This document shows positions 39,958 to 48,639 of a stretch of DNA of 64,000 nucleotides, in pieces. The stretch spans positions 1 through 64,000 of the forward strand of contig JAQBZO010000002.1 in NCBI GenBank assembly GCA_027622195.1, given 5' to 3'. Each line of letters starts with the position of its first letter. Positions within the stretch are counted from its first letter, which is position 1. The DNA is from Planctomycetota bacterium (GTDB taxonomy: Bacteria > Planctomycetota > Phycisphaerae > Phycisphaerales > SM1A02). The notes beneath the pieces are model-generated. The model searched no databases. It was given only the letters and a program-made list of their open reading frames with translations, and was not told the DNA's origin. The position numbers and the translations under genes were made by a program.

Positions 39958-41130
39958 GTGACTCCTGAATACCCCACGAACGCGCTGCCTTTTTCGGTGC
40001 CCTTTGCGCACCGCGTTGTCTTCACGCACGGACTATTCAATCTGGACAATGACGCGGCCGCGCACGCCATGAGTGAAGTGCTCGGAGGGTCGGATCCTGT
40101 TTCTTCTCGTGGAATCATCGCGTTTATCGACGATGGCTTTCACACGCAGTGGCCCGATTTCGACGGGGAACTGCGCGGTTGGTTGCAGGCGCATCTTCCC
40201 AATGTTGAGTTACGATCGGTCACGCGCGTTCCGGGGGGCGAGTCATGCAAGCAAGACATGCAACTCGTGGATCAGGTCATCGAAGCCGTCGAGCGGTGGA
40301 AGATCGATCGCCGCAGTGCTGTCCTCGCTGTGGGCGGAGGCGCAGTGCTCGATGCGGTGGGACTCGGTGCAGCGCTGTCGCACCGAGGTGTTCGCCACAT
40401 TCGCGTGCCCACCTCGGTGTTGGCGCAAGATGACGCGGGCATGGGTGTCAAGAATGGCATCAATCGCTTTGGAAAAAAGAATTTTGTGGGATCGTTCTCG
40501 CCGCCCGATGCGGTGCTGTGTGATCTCTCGCACACTCGCACACTCTCGGTTCGCCATCGTCGCGCTGGACTCAGCGAAGCGGTGAAGATTTTTGCGCTGC
40601 GCGATCCACACTGGTTTGCGAAGATGGAATCGTCCGCAATTGCACTGCGCGATGGTGCTCCTGAGGCACTCGAGCCTGTGATCGTGCAGTCGGCGCATTG
40701 GCATGTGCAGCACATTGTGCGTGGTGGAGATCCATTCGAGAGACTCGCCGCTCGTCCACTCGACTTTGGCCATTGGAGCGCGCATCGACTCGAGTCGCTC
40801 TCTCAGTTCGAGATACCACACGGCGAGGCGGTTTCAATCGGCATCGCGCTCGATTGCCACTATGCCAGACTTGCAGGATTGATGTCCAAGGACGCGTGCG
40901 ATCGCGTGGTGTCGCTCCTGCGAACACTTGGACTTCCGACATTCCATCCGCTTCTCGAACAGACCGCTGCCTTGATCCCAAGTCTCGAGGAGTTTCGCGA
41001 GCATCTCGGTGGACAGCTCACCATCACACTACTCCGCGAGATTGGCGAATCGGTGGATGTGCATGCGATGGAGACCGCTCTCCTCGAACGCGCGGTCCTC
41101 TCACTGAAGGCTGAGTCGTCCTCAAAGTGA
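39958..41130 (+). CDS. eboD: 3-dehydroquinate synthase-like protein, EboD type
   Basis: This 390-aa sugar-phosphate cyclase-fold protein has NAD-site VGGGAVLDAVGLGAALSHRG and IRVPTSVLAQDDAGMGVKNGIN. The zinc-ligand regions are GLSEAVKIFA, FGHWSAHRLES and PHGEAVSIGI. It differs from AroB in the VKNGIN loop. It lies 328 bp upstream of the TatD-like eboB with one small gene between, and the same stretch of chromosome carries eboE, eboC and eboF homologues, so I assign it to the EBO set rather than to the shikimate pathway. The start is GTG 39958. Housekeeping AroB cannot be excluded from sequence alone. Confidence 0.8.
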   Translation: MTPEYPTNALPFSVPFAHRVVFTHGLFNLDNDAAAHAMSEVLGGSDPVSSRGIIAFIDDGFHTQWPDFDGELRGWLQAHLPNVELRSVTRVPGGESCKQDMQLVDQVIEAVERWKIDRRSAVLAVGGGAVLDAVGLGAALSHRGVRHIRVPTSVLAQDDAGMGVKNGINRFGKKNFVGSFSPPDAVLCDLSHTRTLSVRHRRAGLSEAVKIFALRDPHWFAKMESSAIALRDGAPEALEPVIVQSAHWHVQHIVRGGDPFERLAARPLDFGHWSAHRLESLSQFEIPHGEAVSIGIALDCHYARLAGLMSKDACDRVVSLLRTLGLPTFHPLLEQTAALIPSLEEFREHLGGQLTITLLREIGESVDVHAMETALLERAVLSLKAESSSK

Positions 41131-41165
41131 TTCTCGCGCATCGAAACGTGAGATACGATGGGTGG

Positions 41166-41444
41166 ATGGCGAGTCCACTCACAAAGGAACAGGCAATCGA
41201 TTTGTACTTCATGGAACATCGGGCCAAGGTGATTGATTTGGCTGCATTTCTCGACCGAATCGATCGCGCGAGCGGAGAGCCGTCAAAGGATTTTCGAATC
41301 AGTGCCATGCGGGAGGCCATCGCCCTCCTGCTCGACGGACAATCCGATCGAGCGCGGCGGATCTTGGAACTCTGGAGCGATCCCACTGAGAATCCGATTG
41401 ACAAGACGACGACCAAGGGCGCGTCGGGTACTTGGAATCGCTAA
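41166..41444 (+). CDS. Small EBO-cluster-associated protein of unknown function
   Basis: This 92-aa soluble protein is mostly helical, with MEHRAKVIDLAAFLDRIDRA, REAIALLLDGQSDRARRILE and a polar tail (KTTTKGASGTWNR). TACGAT ends exactly 6 nt before the ATG with no Shine-Dalgarno, so it has its own leaderless promoter. It lies between eboD and eboB, which starts 14 bp after its stop. It does not look like EboA (about 230 aa in cyanobacteria). The upstream ORF extension to 41127 is rejected because it contains the -10. Confidence 0.75.
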   Translation: MASPLTKEQAIDLYFMEHRAKVIDLAAFLDRIDRASGEPSKDFRISAMREAIALLLDGQSDRARRILELWSDPTENPIDKTTTKGASGTWNR

Positions 41445-41458
41445 CACGAGATTGCACG

Positions 41459-42262
41459 ATGTACATTGATCCACACATTCATATGGTGAGCCGCACGACG
41501 GACGATTACCAGCGAATGGCGCAGGCTGGTTGCGTCGCGATCACCGAACCTGCATTCTGGGCGGGATACGACCGCGCGAGCGTGAATGGTTTTGTGGATT
41601 ATTTCAGACAACTCACCGATACCGAACCTCGGCGTGCGGCACAGTTCGGAATCGCCCACCACACATGGCTGTGCATCAATCCAAAAGAAAGTGAAGATGT
41701 GGGACTCGCGCGCGAAGTGCTTGGCGTGATTCCACGATTCATGGACCGTCCCAATGTGCTCGGCATCGGAGAGATCGGTCTCAACAAGAACTCGAAGACC
41801 GAACTCATCATCCTTGAAGAGCACATCGCACTCGCGAAGCGCACGGGTGTCTTGATGTTGGTCCATACGCCACACCTTGAGGACAAACTCAAAGGCACGC
41901 GACTCATCATGGACGCGATGCGAAACCAGTCGATTGATCCTGGACGCGTCTTGATCGACCATGTTGAAGAGCACACTGTTCCACTCGTGCTCGATCGTGG
42001 TTTTTGGGCGGGTATGACCCTGTATCCAGACTCAAAGGTGACTCCGCAACGCGCCGCCGACATATTTGAATTGCATGGGACAGATCGACTCTGGATCAAT
42101 TCTGCTGGAGACTGGGGTGTCAGTGATCCTCTCGCTGTGCCGAAGTGCCGCGTTGAAATGAAGAGGCGTGGTCATCTCGCCGAGACCATTCGCAAGGTGA
42201 GTTTTGAGAATCCTCTGCAGTTTCTCTCGCAGAGCGGTCGTTTCAAGATCACGACGGCATGA
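41459..42262 (+). CDS. eboB: TatD-like metal-dependent hydrolase, EboB type
   Basis: The 267-aa TIM-barrel amidohydrolase starts MYIDPHIHMVSRTTDDYQRM; the HIH pair gives two metal ligands. GIGEIGLNKNS supplies a Glu, VHTPH and LIDHVEE supply His residues, and INSAGDWG supplies the late Asp region. These match TatD-superfamily metal sites, and EboB is the TatD-like member of EBO clusters. The substrate is unknown. ATG 41459 is preferred over the ORF start at 41432, which lies in the previous gene. A divergent MBL-rhodanese gene separates it from eboE. Confidence 0.82.
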   Translation: MYIDPHIHMVSRTTDDYQRMAQAGCVAITEPAFWAGYDRASVNGFVDYFRQLTDTEPRRAAQFGIAHHTWLCINPKESEDVGLAREVLGVIPRFMDRPNVLGIGEIGLNKNSKTELIILEEHIALAKRTGVLMLVHTPHLEDKLKGTRLIMDAMRNQSIDPGRVLIDHVEEHTVPLVLDRGFWAGMTLYPDSKVTPQRAADIFELHGTDRLWINSAGDWGVSDPLAVPKCRVEMKRRGHLAETIRKVSFENPLQFLSQSGRFKITTA

Positions 42263-42265
42263 GTG

Positions 42266-43723
42266 CTACGACCGAATCGCGCAACTCTCAACGGTGACGC
42301 GTTCTCCGCCACTCTTCAGCCATCCGTTGAATCCGCCTGAAACATTGCGGACATCGAACCCTTCCCGTTTGAGAAATGCTGCCGCCATAGCGCTGCGTAC
42401 TCCGCCTTGACAATGCACATGAAGGACTCGATCGTCGGGAATGTTGTCGAGTTGATCAGCGAGTCGGGTGTGTGCGATGTTGATCGATCCTAGAATCGAT
42501 CCCCGCACATGCTCGGCGGCTCGGCGGACATCAAGTACCACGGTGTGTGGCGCTGGCGTGTGCGCGAGGAGATTGCGAAGCGCCGACGGATCTTCCTCTG
42601 GAATCGACTCGAACTTCACTCCAAACTCACGACATGCGGCGATCTCGCTTGGATCAACCCACGCATCAATCATGTCGAGGCCAATGCGGACAAAATTGCG
42701 AATCACTCGTTCGCGTTGATCCTCTGGACACACGATCCACAAATGATCTTCTGGTTCAGCGTACGAACCAATGGTGAGTGTGAGGTTGATCCCCATCGTG
42801 CTCCAGAGCGAACCAGGAAGATGTGCCGCGCGGAACTCGCTCCAAGGACGAAGGTCGATGACGGTGATCTCTTCATTGAACGCGCGGCTGATTTCTTCGG
42901 CGCGCAATGTTCTCGGAGTCGGAAGGTGGCGCATCGATGGGACACCATCCCGATTCCACCCCTTCATCCTCGCGTAATACAGCGGAGGCTCGGGCTGAGC
43001 ATCAAGAACGTTCTGCACAAACACCTCTTCACCCGACGAGACGAGGTCGCAGAGAAGCGGCGAAAAACGCCGCTCATATCCGACGGTGGACTGAAGGACA
43101 GCTCCCAGCGACTTTCCACATGCACTCCCTGCCCCGTGTGCCGGCCACACTTGCACGAAGTCGGGAAGTTGTAGAAATCGCTTCGCACTCTCGGCGAGGA
43201 CGCGCGCACCGTCGACCGCGCTCTCTCTGACTCCGAGTGCTGATTCGAGGAGATCGGGTCGACCAAGATCGCCGACGAAGACGAAGTCTCCACTCACGAG
43301 TGCCATCGGCTCTTCTGCTCCAGATGCTCGGTCGCACACGAGGTACGAAACATGTTCAGGAGTGTGTCCAGGCGTATGTATCGCGACCAAAACAATTCCA
43401 CCCACTTCAATCGTGTCACCATCCGCGAGGAGTGTGGACTCGCACTGGGAGACCCACTTGCTCTGCCAATCGGGACCGCCGAGTCCAGACACGTAGACAC
43501 GTGCACTGGTCTTCGAGGCAAGTTCGCGCGCACCAGAGAGAAAGTCGGCGTGGATGTGCGTCTCGGCGACGGCGACGATCTTGAATCCGTGGGCCTTCGC
43601 AACATCTAGGACTCGATCGATATCTCTTGGCGGATCAATCACGATCGCCTCATGGTTGACCTGACATCCAATCAGGTAGCAAGCGTGCGCGAGATCTTCA
43701 TCGTAGATTGGTCGAACGAGCAT
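42266..43723 (-). CDS. MBL-fold hydrolase with two C-terminal rhodanese domains
   Basis: This protein of about 485 aa has a metallo-beta-lactamase domain (~1-215) with ETHIHADFLSGA, HTPGHTPEHVSYL and SGDFVFVGDLGRPDLL. The usual HxHxDH is HxHxDF, as in a common rhodanese-fused subgroup. Rhodanese domain 1 (~265-365) has no clear active Cys loop. Domain 2 (~375-470) has VHCQGGVRSA with the active Cys. Such proteins act in persulfide or thiosulfate metabolism. ATG 43723 has AAGAGG upstream; ATG 43753 is an alternative. It is oriented against the EBO genes on both sides, so it is probably an insertion into that neighbourhood. Confidence 0.87.
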   Translation of the reverse strand: MLVRPIYDEDLAHACYLIGCQVNHEAIVIDPPRDIDRVLDVAKAHGFKIVAVAETHIHADFLSGARELASKTSARVYVSGLGGPDWQSKWVSQCESTLLADGDTIEVGGIVLVAIHTPGHTPEHVSYLVCDRASGAEEPMALVSGDFVFVGDLGRPDLLESALGVRESAVDGARVLAESAKRFLQLPDFVQVWPAHGAGSACGKSLGAVLQSTVGYERRFSPLLCDLVSSGEEVFVQNVLDAQPEPPLYYARMKGWNRDGVPSMRHLPTPRTLRAEEISRAFNEEITVIDLRPWSEFRAAHLPGSLWSTMGINLTLTIGSYAEPEDHLWIVCPEDQRERVIRNFVRIGLDMIDAWVDPSEIAACREFGVKFESIPEEDPSALRNLLAHTPAPHTVVLDVRRAAEHVRGSILGSINIAHTRLADQLDNIPDDRVLHVHCQGGVRSAMAAAFLKREGFDVRNVSGGFNGWLKSGGERVTVESCAIRS

Positions 43724-43827
43724 AGGGTGGGTCCTCTTGATGGGCCGAGACATCACATTACTACATTGGCGCGCACGATTCCAGCACAATCTGTTTCCAC
43801 AGGAATGGCGTGCGATACCATTCGGCA

Positions 43828-44520
43828 ATGGCGCGGATCGACACCCATTCTCCACGCATTGGCATCAACGCCGATCTCGTCTCTTCTGGATCAGCACTAC
43901 GTCATTGTGTGAGGGAGGAGTATGTTCAGGCGGTGATTCGCGCTGGGGGAATCCCGATCATTCTGCCTGTATCCGCGACAGCGGGTGCTGAGACTCTCTC
44001 GCAACTTGACGGCATCGTCCTCACTGGCGGCGGCGACATTCATACACAATTAATGGGGATTGCTCTTCATGAGAAAGCCGAGTGCATGCATCCACAGCGG
44101 CAGTCGGCAGATTTTTCCCTGCTCACGGCACTCGATTCCTGTCCGAATATGCCTGTCCTTGGAATCTGTCTCGGCATGCAAGAAATGGGTGTTCACGCTG
44201 GAGGCCGACTCATTCAACATATTCACGATGTGTTGCCTGATGGAGATCGGCATGGCGGAGATCAGCTTCATCCTGTGACCACTGATTTCGGTTGCGGCAC
44301 CATCGCGTCGTGGCATCATCAGGTACTCGCCGATGCTGGAACAATGATCGCCGCTGGAACGAGTGATGATGGACTCCTTGAGGCGATTCGACATCCAACG
44401 CGTCCGTTCTATGTCGGTGTGCAGTGGCATCCTGAGCGAACCAAAGATGAACTCCTTGGACTCGGGATGTTCAAGCGACTCATCGAGGCAGCGCGTGCGT
44501 ACGCGGCAATGCAACGATGA
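43828..44520 (+). CDS. Class I glutamine amidotransferase-like hydrolase (peptidase C26, PuuD-like)
   Basis: This 230-aa protein of the gamma-glutamyl-GABA hydrolase type has TGGGDIHTQLMG, the nucleophile elbow LGICLGMQEMGVHAGG (Cys) and GVQWHPERTKDELL (His-Glu). It would hydrolyse a gamma-glutamyl amide bond. TACCAT ends exactly 6 nt before the ATG and no ribosome-binding site is seen, so it is probably leaderless; GTG 43810 is the other possible start. Its stop overlaps the eboE start (ATGA), making it the first gene of an eboE-eboC-eboF operon. This coupling suggests a role with the EBO metabolite. Confidence 0.87.
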   Translation: MARIDTHSPRIGINADLVSSGSALRHCVREEYVQAVIRAGGIPIILPVSATAGAETLSQLDGIVLTGGGDIHTQLMGIALHEKAECMHPQRQSADFSLLTALDSCPNMPVLGICLGMQEMGVHAGGRLIQHIHDVLPDGDRHGGDQLHPVTTDFGCGTIASWHHQVLADAGTMIAAGTSDDGLLEAIRHPTRPFYVGVQWHPERTKDELLGLGMFKRLIEAARAYAAMQR

Positions 44521-45746
44521 GTGCCACACTCGGATACTGCACGAATATCCATGCTGGTGCAACATTGTGCCAGATGTTGGATGAACTCGATCGGCACGCG
44601 GTGGCGGTTCGTCGGCGCGTCAACGAAAACACTTCTGCCGACGCGGCCACTCCACTTCCGATTGGACTCTGGCTGAGTGCGCGTCACGTCTTCACATTGA
44701 AAGAAGGTGGAGATCCTGCGCGCGCCGCGGGTCTCAGTGCATCGGATCCCATTGCGAGTTTGCGAGATTGGCTCACCGAGCGCGGACTTGAGGTGTTCAC
44801 GCTCAATGGATTTCCATACGGCGATTTTCACGGACCAGTGGTCAAGCGAGCCGTGTATGAACCGCACTGGGGCGACACGCGAAGAATGCTCCACACGATG
44901 GATCTTGCGGAGATTGCGGTGAAATTGGCGCCGATCGGGCAATCCGACTTCAGTATCTCGACTCTCCCACTCGGCTGGAGAGCAACGCTCTCGGCGAAAG
45001 ACGCGGCCGCTTCGATGGGAGTGGCGATGGCCAACCTTCATTCCCTTGTGCGATTCCTCTCTGAACTGGAGGACCGAACCGGCATCTGCGTTCATGTCGA
45101 TCTCGAGCCGGAGCCGGGGTGCATGATCGACCGCGCCGCGGATGTCGTCGTGTTTTTTGAGGCACTCGAAAAACAGGGCACCAATCCATCCCCCCACTCC
45201 ATGCTGAGACGCCATCTGGGAGTGTGCCACGACATTTGCCATAGTTCAGTCATGTTTGAGAGTCAGGAATTCGCCCTCGCTTCCTATCGTGCCGCTGGAA
45301 TCCAAATCGGCAAGGTCCAAATCAGCAGCGCGATTCAGTGCGATGGATCGGAGCGCGCCTTTCGTTGGCTTCAGCAATTCGTCGAACCGAAGTGGCTTCA
45401 CCAAACCTGTGTCATGGATGGAACGGGTGCGGTTCATTTCCATGATGATCTTGATGTCGCACTCGACACCGCACCCGATGGCCTGTGGCGTTCGCACTTC
45501 CACGTGCCGATTTTTTGTGACGAACTTGCTCCGCAGGGAGCGGTGATGAGCACACGCAGTGAAATCGAGGCATGCCTTGGGACCATCCTTCCGACAGATC
45601 GGATCGCTGCCTACGAGGTTGAAACCTATGCATGGTCAGCCCTTCCCGCTCACCTGCGAAAGGCAACACTTGCCGAGGATGTCGCCGCTGAACTTGCCGA
45701 AGCGAGAGCGATGTTGATCGCACGCGGACTCTTGCCTCAGTCGTAG
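44517..45746 (+). CDS. eboE: Xylose isomerase-like TIM barrel protein, EboE type (metabolite traffic protein)
   Basis: This 409-aa AP endonuclease-2/sugar-isomerase-like TIM barrel begins LGYCTNIHAGATLCQMLDEL. Likely metal-site segments are VHVDLEPEPGCMID, GVCHDICHSSVMFES and the late HFHVPIF. The opening 'GYCTNIHAG' and the combination with UbiA and phosphatase neighbours are typical of EboE. The substrate is unknown. It overlaps the amidotransferase by 4 bp and is followed 38 bp later by the prenyltransferase gene. Confidence 0.85.
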   Translation: MSATLGYCTNIHAGATLCQMLDELDRHAVAVRRRVNENTSADAATPLPIGLWLSARHVFTLKEGGDPARAAGLSASDPIASLRDWLTERGLEVFTLNGFPYGDFHGPVVKRAVYEPHWGDTRRMLHTMDLAEIAVKLAPIGQSDFSISTLPLGWRATLSAKDAAASMGVAMANLHSLVRFLSELEDRTGICVHVDLEPEPGCMIDRAADVVVFFEALEKQGTNPSPHSMLRRHLGVCHDICHSSVMFESQEFALASYRAAGIQIGKVQISSAIQCDGSERAFRWLQQFVEPKWLHQTCVMDGTGAVHFHDDLDVALDTAPDGLWRSHFHVPIFCDELAPQGAVMSTRSEIEACLGTILPTDRIAAYEVETYAWSALPAHLRKATLAEDVAAELAEARAMLIARGLLPQS

Positions 45747-45784
45747 CGCGCCATCTTGTTGAGGCGTGTACCCTTCCCGCAATC

Positions 45785-47131
45785 ATGCCCATCACCGCAC
45801 GGATCGCGGCGTTCTTGGAGCTCGTCCGCTTCGCCAATTGGCCCACCATCCTTAGCGATGTGCTACTTGGAATTGTGGTCGCGTTTTTTCTCTATGGAGT
45901 GCCTGCTGATCCATTCACTCTTTGGCGTGACGACTACTCAGTCCCGTGGAGCCGCATTCTTTGGACACTCGTCGGACTTACTTGCTTCTATTGGGGTGGG
46001 ATGGCACTCAATGCTGCGGTCGATGTCGCGACCGATGCGCAACAACGACCCGACCGTCCAGTGCCGAGCGGGCGGATTTCGCTTTCGGCCACGTGGTTCA
46101 TCGCTGTCACACTGTTGATCGTTGGCATCACTCCATTCGCGAACGCGTTTCCCTACGAAGGACTCCTCGCCACCTATGTCGGCATGGCGTGTTTGACCCT
46201 TGTCAAACCCTATCCCAACAGGCGTGGACAACCATGGGTGCGGCGACTCGGCACAGGATGGTTGATCTTCGGAGTCGTTGCATGTGTGGCGCGACTCGCG
46301 AGTGCATCGATCGATTACGGAGATCAATGGCGCGGACTCGCACACTCTCTCGATGCGGCGCTCCTTCTGATGGCCATCGTCCTCTACAACCTCGTCCACG
46401 CGCACGCACGCTGGAGCGTTGCATTGCTTGGACTCTGCCGCGCGCTCACCGTTCTCATCGCTGCGCTCGCCGCCGCGGAAGCAACCGCATGGCCATTCAC
46501 TGCTGCTGCACTGGCTTGGAAGGGATCTCCTGACTATGGATTCTTCCCCATCGTGATCGCAGCGGTTGGCGGCGGTGTGTACATCGCACTCGTCAGTTTG
46601 GTGGCAAGGCGTGAGGCTCCGCACCTCGCACGCAAGGTCGCGGGGGCAAGTGACGCTCCGCTTTTTTGTCACAAGTGTGATCATGGACTCGCCTTCCCAC
46701 CACCATCATGCTGCCCTGAGTGCGGCGCGGATCTCTCGATCTTGCCTGCCATTCACGCTGACGAGCGGCGGGCAATGAGTGCGCGCTGGGTGCTGATTCC
46801 CGCGATGTTTCTGGTGCTCTCGCCGTGGGTGTTTTCGGCATGGACCTATGACATTGCGCAAGATCGACTTCCTCCATGGTGGTTGATGAGCGTTGCAGCG
46901 TTTGCTTGCGGCGTCTACTTTCTCCTTATCGTCACACGAGCGGTTCGAGCCGCTGATGTGCATCCATCGCGTGTTCCACGCGCCGTTGGAGCGATGCTCG
47001 CCGCACTCCCAGCTGGACAAGGGGTCTTGATGGCTGCGCTCGGCGCACCCTATGCGGCGTTTTTTGCCCTTGGACTCGCAATCGCGGTCAAACTGCTTCA
47101 GCGAGTGCGTGCGTTGAGCATCGGTTCGTGA
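45785..47131 (+). CDS. eboC: UbiA-family prenyltransferase with an inserted zinc ribbon, EboC type
   Basis: This 448-aa membrane protein is about 150 aa longer than usual UbiA enzymes. The first Asp-rich motif is NAAVDVATDAQQRPDRPVPS. About eight hydrophobic helices precede a soluble segment FCHKCDHGLAFPPPSCCPECGADLS, a four-Cys zinc ribbon near residue 300. Two extra helices and the standard last helices (VGAMLAALPAGQGVLMAAL) follow. The second Asp motif of UbiA is weak. EboC proteins are thought to prenylate or carry the EBO metabolite at the membrane. TACCCT lies 10 nt upstream of the ATG, so there may be an internal promoter. Confidence 0.82.
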   Translation: MPITARIAAFLELVRFANWPTILSDVLLGIVVAFFLYGVPADPFTLWRDDYSVPWSRILWTLVGLTCFYWGGMALNAAVDVATDAQQRPDRPVPSGRISLSATWFIAVTLLIVGITPFANAFPYEGLLATYVGMACLTLVKPYPNRRGQPWVRRLGTGWLIFGVVACVARLASASIDYGDQWRGLAHSLDAALLLMAIVLYNLVHAHARWSVALLGLCRALTVLIAALAAAEATAWPFTAAALAWKGSPDYGFFPIVIAAVGGGVYIALVSLVARREAPHLARKVAGASDAPLFCHKCDHGLAFPPPSCCPECGADLSILPAIHADERRAMSARWVLIPAMFLVLSPWVFSAWTYDIAQDRLPPWWLMSVAAFACGVYFLLIVTRAVRAADVHPSRVPRAVGAMLAALPAGQGVLMAALGAPYAAFFALGLAIAVKLLQRVRALSIGS

Positions 47132-47175
47132 TTCAGCGAGCGCATTGATTTGACGCATTCTGGGATACTTCACCG

Positions 47176-48639
47176 ATGCGACGCGTTGCGGTTCTGAACA
47201 TTGTTGGACTTTCGACAGGGCTCTTGAGCGATGCAACGCCGCGGCTCAGAGAGTTCGCTCGTCACAGTGGTGGAGTGCGCACACTTCGTCCTCCGCTCCC
47301 CGCCGTCACGTGCACCGCGCAAACGGCGATGCTGACTGGCAAGCCCGCGCGCGATCATGGCATTGTCGGCAACGGTTGGTTTGACCGCGGTCTCGGAGAA
47401 GTCCACTTCTGGAAACAATCGAGCGGACTCGTCGAATCTCCTCGCGTGTGGGACAACGCACGCGCACGCGCTGGTACTACCTCCAGATGCGCCGATGGAT
47501 CCGCGTTCACTGCTGCGAATCTTTTTTGGTGGTTCAACATGGGATCGACGGTGGACATCGCTGTCACCCCGAGGCCGATGTATCCCGCCGATGGACGCAA
47601 GATTCCCGATGTGTGGACTCATCCACCCGAACTGCGTGATGCACTGCAATCGAAGCTCGGACGATTCCCCCTCTTTCACTTTTGGGGACCATCCGCTGGG
47701 ATTTCAAGCTCCGATTGGATTGCTGCGGCGGCGATGGAAGTGATCGCACTCCATCGTCCCACCCTCAGTCTCATCTATCTACCGCACCTGGATTATGCGC
47801 TTCAGAGACATGGACCAGACACGACGAAAGTGCGGCAAGATCTGCGCGAAGTCGATCGCATCTTCGGCGTCCTGATCGATTTTCTCAGAAAGAACGATAT
47901 CGAACCGATGGTCGTAAGCGAGTACGGAATCGCTCCTGTGTCAAAGCCTGTCTATCTCAATCGCGTCTTGCGAGAGGCTGATCTCGTTGAGGTGAGGAAC
48001 GAACTCGGGCGCGAGATGATCGACATTCCATCGTGCGCGGCCTTTGCCGTCTGCGACCACCAACTCGCCCATGTCGTGGTGAGAGACAAGGCGATGCACG
48101 CTGGTGTGCGCACGATTCTTGAATCAACAGCAGGAGTCGAACAAGTTCTCGACCGCGCGCAACAAGCCGCCGCTGGAATCGATCATGAGCGCAGCGGTGA
48201 TTTCGTCTGTATCAGCGAGCGCGACAGTTGGTTTGCCTATCCGTGGTGGATCGATGACAAGCGCGCCCCCGATTTCGCACGCACCGTCGACATCCACCGG
48301 AAGCCTGGGTACGACCCGTGCGAGCTCTTCTTTGACCCACAACTCTTGTTTCCAAGGCTGCGCGTCCTTGCAAAACTCGCGCTGCGCACACTCGGCATGC
48401 GCACTCTGCTCGATGTCATTCCGCTCGATGCGTCACTCGTCAAGGGATCGCATGGTCGAGTCGACAACGGTGCGATGTACGAACCATTCCTCATCGTGGA
48501 CGATCCGATGGTCGAAGGCCCACTCGCGATGGAGTCGGTGCACGATGTCATTCTTCGTCGTCTCTTCATCGATGAAGCGGATCCGCCGCACGCGCCATCG
48601 GCGATCGTTCGCACGAGTGCACGGCGTCACAAACTTTGA
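47176..48639 (+). CDS. eboF: Alkaline phosphatase/nucleotide pyrophosphatase-superfamily protein, EboF type
   Basis: This 487-aa metalloenzyme is of the phosphodiesterase/NPP group. The nucleophile region is PPLPAVTCTAQTAMLTG (Thr), with RDHGIVGNGWFDR just after, as in nucleotide pyrophosphatases. Other metal-site segments are IYLPHLDYALQRHG (Asp-x-x-x-His type), VVSEYGI and KGSHGR. It is the last gene of the amidotransferase-eboE-eboC-eboF run. No signal peptide is seen. The substrate is unknown. Confidence 0.85.
   Translation: MRRVAVLNIVGLSTGLLSDATPRLREFARHSGGVRTLRPPLPAVTCTAQTAMLTGKPARDHGIVGNGWFDRGLGEVHFWKQSSGLVESPRVWDNARARAGTTSRCADGSAFTAANLFWWFNMGSTVDIAVTPRPMYPADGRKIPDVWTHPPELRDALQSKLGRFPLFHFWGPSAGISSSDWIAAAAMEVIALHRPTLSLIYLPHLDYALQRHGPDTTKVRQDLREVDRIFGVLIDFLRKNDIEPMVVSEYGIAPVSKPVYLNRVLREADLVEVRNELGREMIDIPSCAAFAVCDHQLAHVVVRDKAMHAGVRTILESTAGVEQVLDRAQQAAAGIDHERSGDFVCISERDSWFAYPWWIDDKRAPDFARTVDIHRKPGYDPCELFFDPQLLFPRLRVLAKLALRTLGMRTLLDVIPLDASLVKGSHGRVDNGAMYEPFLIVDDPMVEGPLAMESVHDVILRRLFIDEADPPHAPSAIVRTSARRHKL

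Follow-up and report, generated by a model that had tools for sequence, protein, structure and literature searches.

How does a putative zinc ribbon come to lie between the membrane helices of a UbiA-type prenyltransferase, and what might it do there? The question is raised by a stop-free frame of 448 codons at positions 45785-47131 (plus strand) of the window, by which we mean the whole stretch of 64,000 nucleotides that was analysed. We put at about one half the probability of the following reading: the frame encodes an EboC-position UbiA protein whose loop L6-7 has taken in a C4 ribbon within one family of Phycisphaerales, as an accessory element for docking or for ordering the loop.

The ebo cluster and its UbiA-type protein

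The frame is part of a largely complete ebo cluster (39958-48639) with the order D-(small ORF)-B-E-C-F:

39958-41130, plus strand: sugar phosphate cyclase of the DHQS family at the EboD position (PF01761; NF004852, 454.6 bits; synteny)
41166-41444, plus strand: conserved 92-aa ORF without annotation, located between eboD and eboB; candidate stand-in for EboA/EboG
41432-42262, plus strand: TatD-like hydrolase at the EboB position (PF01026, 24.8 bits, under the cut-off of 27; syntenic homologues)
44517-45746, plus strand: EboE, a TIM barrel, directly upstream of EboC (NF035939, 355.5 bits against a cut-off of 250)
45785-47131, plus strand: UbiA-type prenyltransferase at the EboC position, 448 aa (Pfam UbiA; best NCBIfam match EboC; AF2 models)
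47176-48639, plus strand: type I phosphodiesterase at the EboF position, directly downstream of EboC (PF01663, 200 bits; synteny)

An MBL-rhodanese gene (42266-43855, minus strand) and a peptidase C26 gene (43810-44520) interrupt the cluster. The order E-C-F or D-B-E-C-F recurs in most relatives whose flanking sequence is long enough, and EboE and EboF genes flank EboC whether or not it bears a ribbon. In three other planctomycetes, ebo genes have been described without clustering (PMC5133447).

The 448-aa protein scores 44.3 bits against Pfam UbiA, above the gathering score of 34.2. Its best NCBIfam match is NF035940 (EboC), at 77.6 bits and thus under the curated cut-off of 250, as are all six other Phycisphaerales EboCs scored (62-123 bits). 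The name EboC is used here because of synteny, with EboE upstream, EboF downstream and B and D nearby, together with this best, sub-threshold match. Structure prediction, proposed at the outset as a check, gave a UbiA membrane fold: the mean pLDDT of the AF2 model was 82.2 with 26 homologues and 85.6 with 76, and the top deposited structures retrieved with it by Foldseek are UbiA-fold enzymes (6m31, E 6e-5, probability 1.00; 4od4, TMt 0.62). The protein probably attaches a prenyl chain to a small molecule. UbiA-297 of Maribacter, an EboC homologue, farnesylates quinoline acids in vitro (PMC9235831).

The 92-aa ORF has the conserved sequence IDLYFMEHRAKxIDxAAFLDR... and no significant match in Pfam or NCBIfam. 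It occurs in 66 of 121 Phycisphaerales genomes, 59 of which by hand count also hold an EboC match at E<=1e-40, and homologues are present in genomes of Verrucomicrobiota, Hydrogenedentota and Desulfuromonadia. It was not found in the one EboA-bearing genome tested. The EboA model, which does work in two betaproteobacteria, matched nothing in 301 Phycisphaerales genomes, with ribbon or without. This distribution of the ORF fits the mutual exclusivity of eboA and eboG (PMC5133447), and the candidate probably fills the EboA/EboG slot. That the ribbon itself replaces EboA fails to explain the pattern, as the EboA model finds no match in these genomes irrespective of the ribbon.

Position and conservation of the ribbon

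Within the protein, the following features (all on the plus strand) can be placed:

46010-46036: first Asp-rich motif NAAVDVATD, residues 76-84
46139-46327: extra helix pair, about residues 119-181 (segment length; two more hydrophobic helices)
46604-46615: A-R-R-E signature where the TM6 equivalent ends, residues 274-277, in the place of the second Asp-rich motif (A3 and 6m31 alignments)
46667-46723: C4 zinc ribbon CHKC-x11-CPEC, residues 295-313 (CxxC...CxEC pattern in 36 EboC proteins; AF2)
46781-46960: the two helices past the ribbon, residues 333-392, which are normal for EboC (alignment; helix count)
46964-47104: last helices, residues 394-440 (AF2 model)

The ribbon lies near residue 300 between membrane helices, just where the original prediction had put it. 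Its cysteines are C295, C298, C310 and C313, with C309 as an adjacent, additional one, and its two CxxC knuckles, conserved in 36 EboC sequences, are those of a C4 ribbon that would be expected to bind zinc. At a cysteine frequency of 1.6% outside the ribbon, CxxC-x(8-14)-CxxC is expected by chance about 2e-4 times per protein, which, together with the conservation, rules out a chance arrangement. Both congeners (59-60% overall identity) retain all four cysteines, so that conservation in close homologues, on which the first interpretation depended, is borne out. Across the 36 divergent copies the cysteines and the Glu of CxEC, the latter a part of the search pattern, are invariant with varying linkers. 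Ribbon-bearing EboCs showed no further Cys4 motif of this kind in the rest of the protein. The ribbon of the 448-aa protein reaches no Pfam gathering score (DZR_2, 17.6 against 27); those of the EboCs L092 and L008 lie above the gathering score of Zn_Ribbon_1.

The first ribbon cysteine follows the Glu of A-R-x-E by 7-19 residues in all 33 measurable proteins, one of which (L198) comes from the genome collection. The predicted place is therefore UbiA loop L6-7, from the A-R-x-E end of TM6 to the next helix. UbiA loops had been thought short at this point; in AfUbiA, however, L2-3 and L6-7 are the two long cytoplasmic loops, each following one of the Asp-rich motifs, both of which are on the cytoplasmic side (PMC4106721). 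Given UbiA topology, the ribbon would be cytoplasmic and close to the active-site mouth. In the AF2 models its pLDDT increases from about 61-73 (26 homologues) to 82-88 (76 homologues; blocks 291-320), with short strands, lending support to a soluble Cys4 ribbon in this loop.

The first Asp-rich motif, N(D)xxDxxxD, is present as N76-AAV-D80-VAT-D84, an Ala following the Asn, and N76, D80 and D84 are invariant in A1 and A3. The second, DxxxD, was not found in the 448-aa protein; A-R-R-E stands in its place. In A3, A274 is invariant and R275 and E277 are conserved at 90% or more. The EboC profile aligns A-R-x-E to the GRE just before DFEDMEGD of 6m31, with low posterior in that region. Downstream of A-R-x-E there are no conserved acidic residues in EboCs of any phylum sampled, in a survey whose pattern required the Glu (its conservation was established from separate alignments). 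Judged by sequence, loss of the second motif is a general trait of EboC, extending beyond the 448-aa protein. Compensation by the ribbon for the missing motif is ruled out, as ribbonless EboCs lack it too.

Protein length is a separate matter. The baseline of about 290 aa against which the 448 residues had been set is correct for a typical EboC, but the excess is spread over several segments. The protein is longer by about 14 aa ahead of motif I; the stretch from motif I to YxxxH exceeds the usual length by about 62 aa (105 against about 43 aa, one extra helix pair), the part leading up to A-R-x-E by about 18 aa and the part past it by about 63 aa (171 against about 108 aa, ribbon plus longer linkers). 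The two hydrophobic helices past the ribbon, originally taken for additions, align opposite helices of ribbonless EboCs, and four helices follow A-R-x-E in most EboCs of either kind, by a hydropathy-based count that ranges from 2 to 4 in individual proteins. The true extra pair lies between the equivalents of TM3 and TM4 and is common to genera g2, g17, g56 and g60. It occurs without the ribbon in g2 and g17, and the ribbon occurs without it in g26, g33 and g6; the two vary independently. The helices past the ribbon are ordinary enzyme parts.

Other length variants were seen in the same survey. The helix pair past A-R-x-E is missing altogether from the EboCs of genus g16 and of some members of family f6 (L024, L025, L165, L169, L170 and other short EboCs of about 250-280 aa). 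Most EboC frames of g17 are open for 589-665 aa, with an uncertain start codon, and that of L005 (g17) has a long acidic, low-complexity stretch in frame ahead of it.

Distribution and source of the ribbon

A profile search of 301 Phycisphaerales genomes and fetched regions yielded 141 distinct EboC-type proteins that were long enough to use. The ribbon with all four cysteines (CxxC...CxEC) is present in 35 of them, all from the source family and from 10 of 36 sampled genera (g1, g3, g6, g13, g26, g28, g33, g53, g56 and g60); it was found in none of the four other families that yielded EboCs. Most close, syntenic EboCs are without it, and genera g53, g28 and g13 hold both forms. On trees built without the ribbon columns there are at least nine changes of state, a count that does not separate gain from loss. 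In a genome collection across phyla, the ribbon was present in 2 of the best 80 loci kept, both from Phycisphaerae. The loci, which are no census, had been ranked by their match to a query with a ribbon, a procedure biased towards ribbon carriers. The 78 ribbonless loci came, among the matches listed, from other Planctomycetota, Verrucomicrobiota, Actinomycetota, Pseudomonadota and others. Among the sequences examined the ribbon is thus lineage-restricted, occurring only in Phycisphaerae, and the insertion is not general to EboC.

Where did it come from? A search of Phycisphaerales with the ribbon segment returned many unrelated membrane proteins, among them L034-L060, in which CxxCxYdLxG...CPECGadL lies next to TM helices or between them. 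In several, a KPxWWL stretch comes past the ribbon, followed by a soluble domain. A profile of such TM-ribbon-TM proteins, with the closest protein left out, matched 31 ribbon EboCs at E<1e-3, and masking the ribbon abolished every match; since the profile proteins were first found with the ribbon segment of the 448-aa protein, its own strength is inflated, that of the other EboCs less so. A literature search found no related report of UbiA with a zinc ribbon. By tblastn, plasmids gave weak, partial matches at most. Because the same ribbon class is found in unrelated membrane proteins of the order, the simplest reading of these sequences is that a small lineage-typical module was placed into a UbiA loop, with no fusion of two enzymes.

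That two once-separate proteins were joined had been offered as another explanation, and the ribbon with its next TM does resemble the ribbon and TM of other proteins, a likeness that in the window extends to a PPWWLM/KPDWWL stretch. The module, however, measures only about 35-45 aa and belongs to a widespread class; the helices past it exist in ribbonless orthologues, the EboC C-terminus is intact, and ribbon-masked EboCs do not match the TM-ribbon-TM profile. A fusion is accordingly very improbable.

What the ribbon may do

Ribbonless orthologues in the same syntenic clusters indicate that the ribbon is accessory and unneeded for core function, and the ribbonless close relatives within g53, g28 and g13 make any role it has dispensable. 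Docking or loop ordering appears to be its likeliest role. L6-7 of EboC would have taken in a small C4 ribbon of the class common beside TM helices in Phycisphaerales, so that the long loop would gain a rigid fold or a rigid surface for binding proteins. The ribbon could then dock a soluble Ebo protein or order the loop over the active site, with no part in the chemistry. A more specific version, tentative at best, is a docking port that couples membrane-bound EboC to EboB, EboE, EboF or the 92-aa product. If true, the prenylated product would be passed on directly, and ribbonless lineages would solve the same problem differently.

The main rivals seem to be a lid and a neutral insertion. As an active-site lid where the second Asp-rich motif has been lost, the ribbon would gate or position the substrate at the cytoplasmic mouth. 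It does sit directly past A-R-x-E, the place of DxxxD and L6-7 in UbiA enzymes, and EboCs of all phyla sampled have few acidic residues there; yet the second motif is equally missing from ribbonless EboCs and the ribbon is dispensable among close relatives, which leaves a lid rather unlikely. Similarly doubtful is a near-neutral insertion peculiar to the lineage, one that a long cytoplasmic loop can bear and that persists only because a disrupted ribbon would misfold. The patchy distribution with its nine state changes, the free variation of other inserts within EboC and the abundance of the ribbon class in Phycisphaerales membrane proteins all suit such a history. Less easily reconciled with it are the occurrence of the ribbon always in one and the same loop and the invariance of its cysteines and CxEC Glu (again, a residue of the search pattern) in 36 copies whose linkers differ. 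A metal or redox sensor, in which ribbon loss or oxidation would alter EboC activity, is improbable: an exposed Cys4 site presumably adjoins the active site, but the cysteines are its sole support, and structural zinc ribbons are far commoner than sensor ribbons.

Ebo proteins act together in moving metabolites across the membrane, and the natural presence or absence of the ribbon, predicted to be cytoplasmic and beside the EboC active site, in otherwise syntenic clusters provides paired proteins for a direct test of its role. The ribbon EboCs also show that a folded domain can be accommodated in L6-7 of a UbiA protein. EboC proteins have been reported to carry no additional domain (PMC5133447), a statement that the ribbon EboCs qualify.

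Compared with known systems, the 448-aa protein shares with EboC, including UbiA-297, the EboE-EboC-EboF neighbourhood, the UbiA fold, the first Asp-rich motif and A-R-x-E; it differs in its NF035940 score below the cut-off, the ribbon in L6-7 and the extra helix pair. The nearest solved structures by profile and fold, 6m31 and 7bpu (digeranylgeranylglyceryl phosphate synthase) and 4od4 (ApUbiA), have the second Asp-rich motif that EboC lacks and no ribbon. The ribbon itself has the CxxC-x(10-11)-CxEC-G pattern of the Zn_Ribbon_1 and DZR-type families (PF13240, PF12773, PF18912), but sits within a loop of a membrane enzyme. Also comparable are the TM-ribbon-TM proteins (e.g., L037, L044 and L051), which bear the same ribbon class between or beside TM helices as EboC does, and are otherwise unrelated to it and no prenyltransferases.
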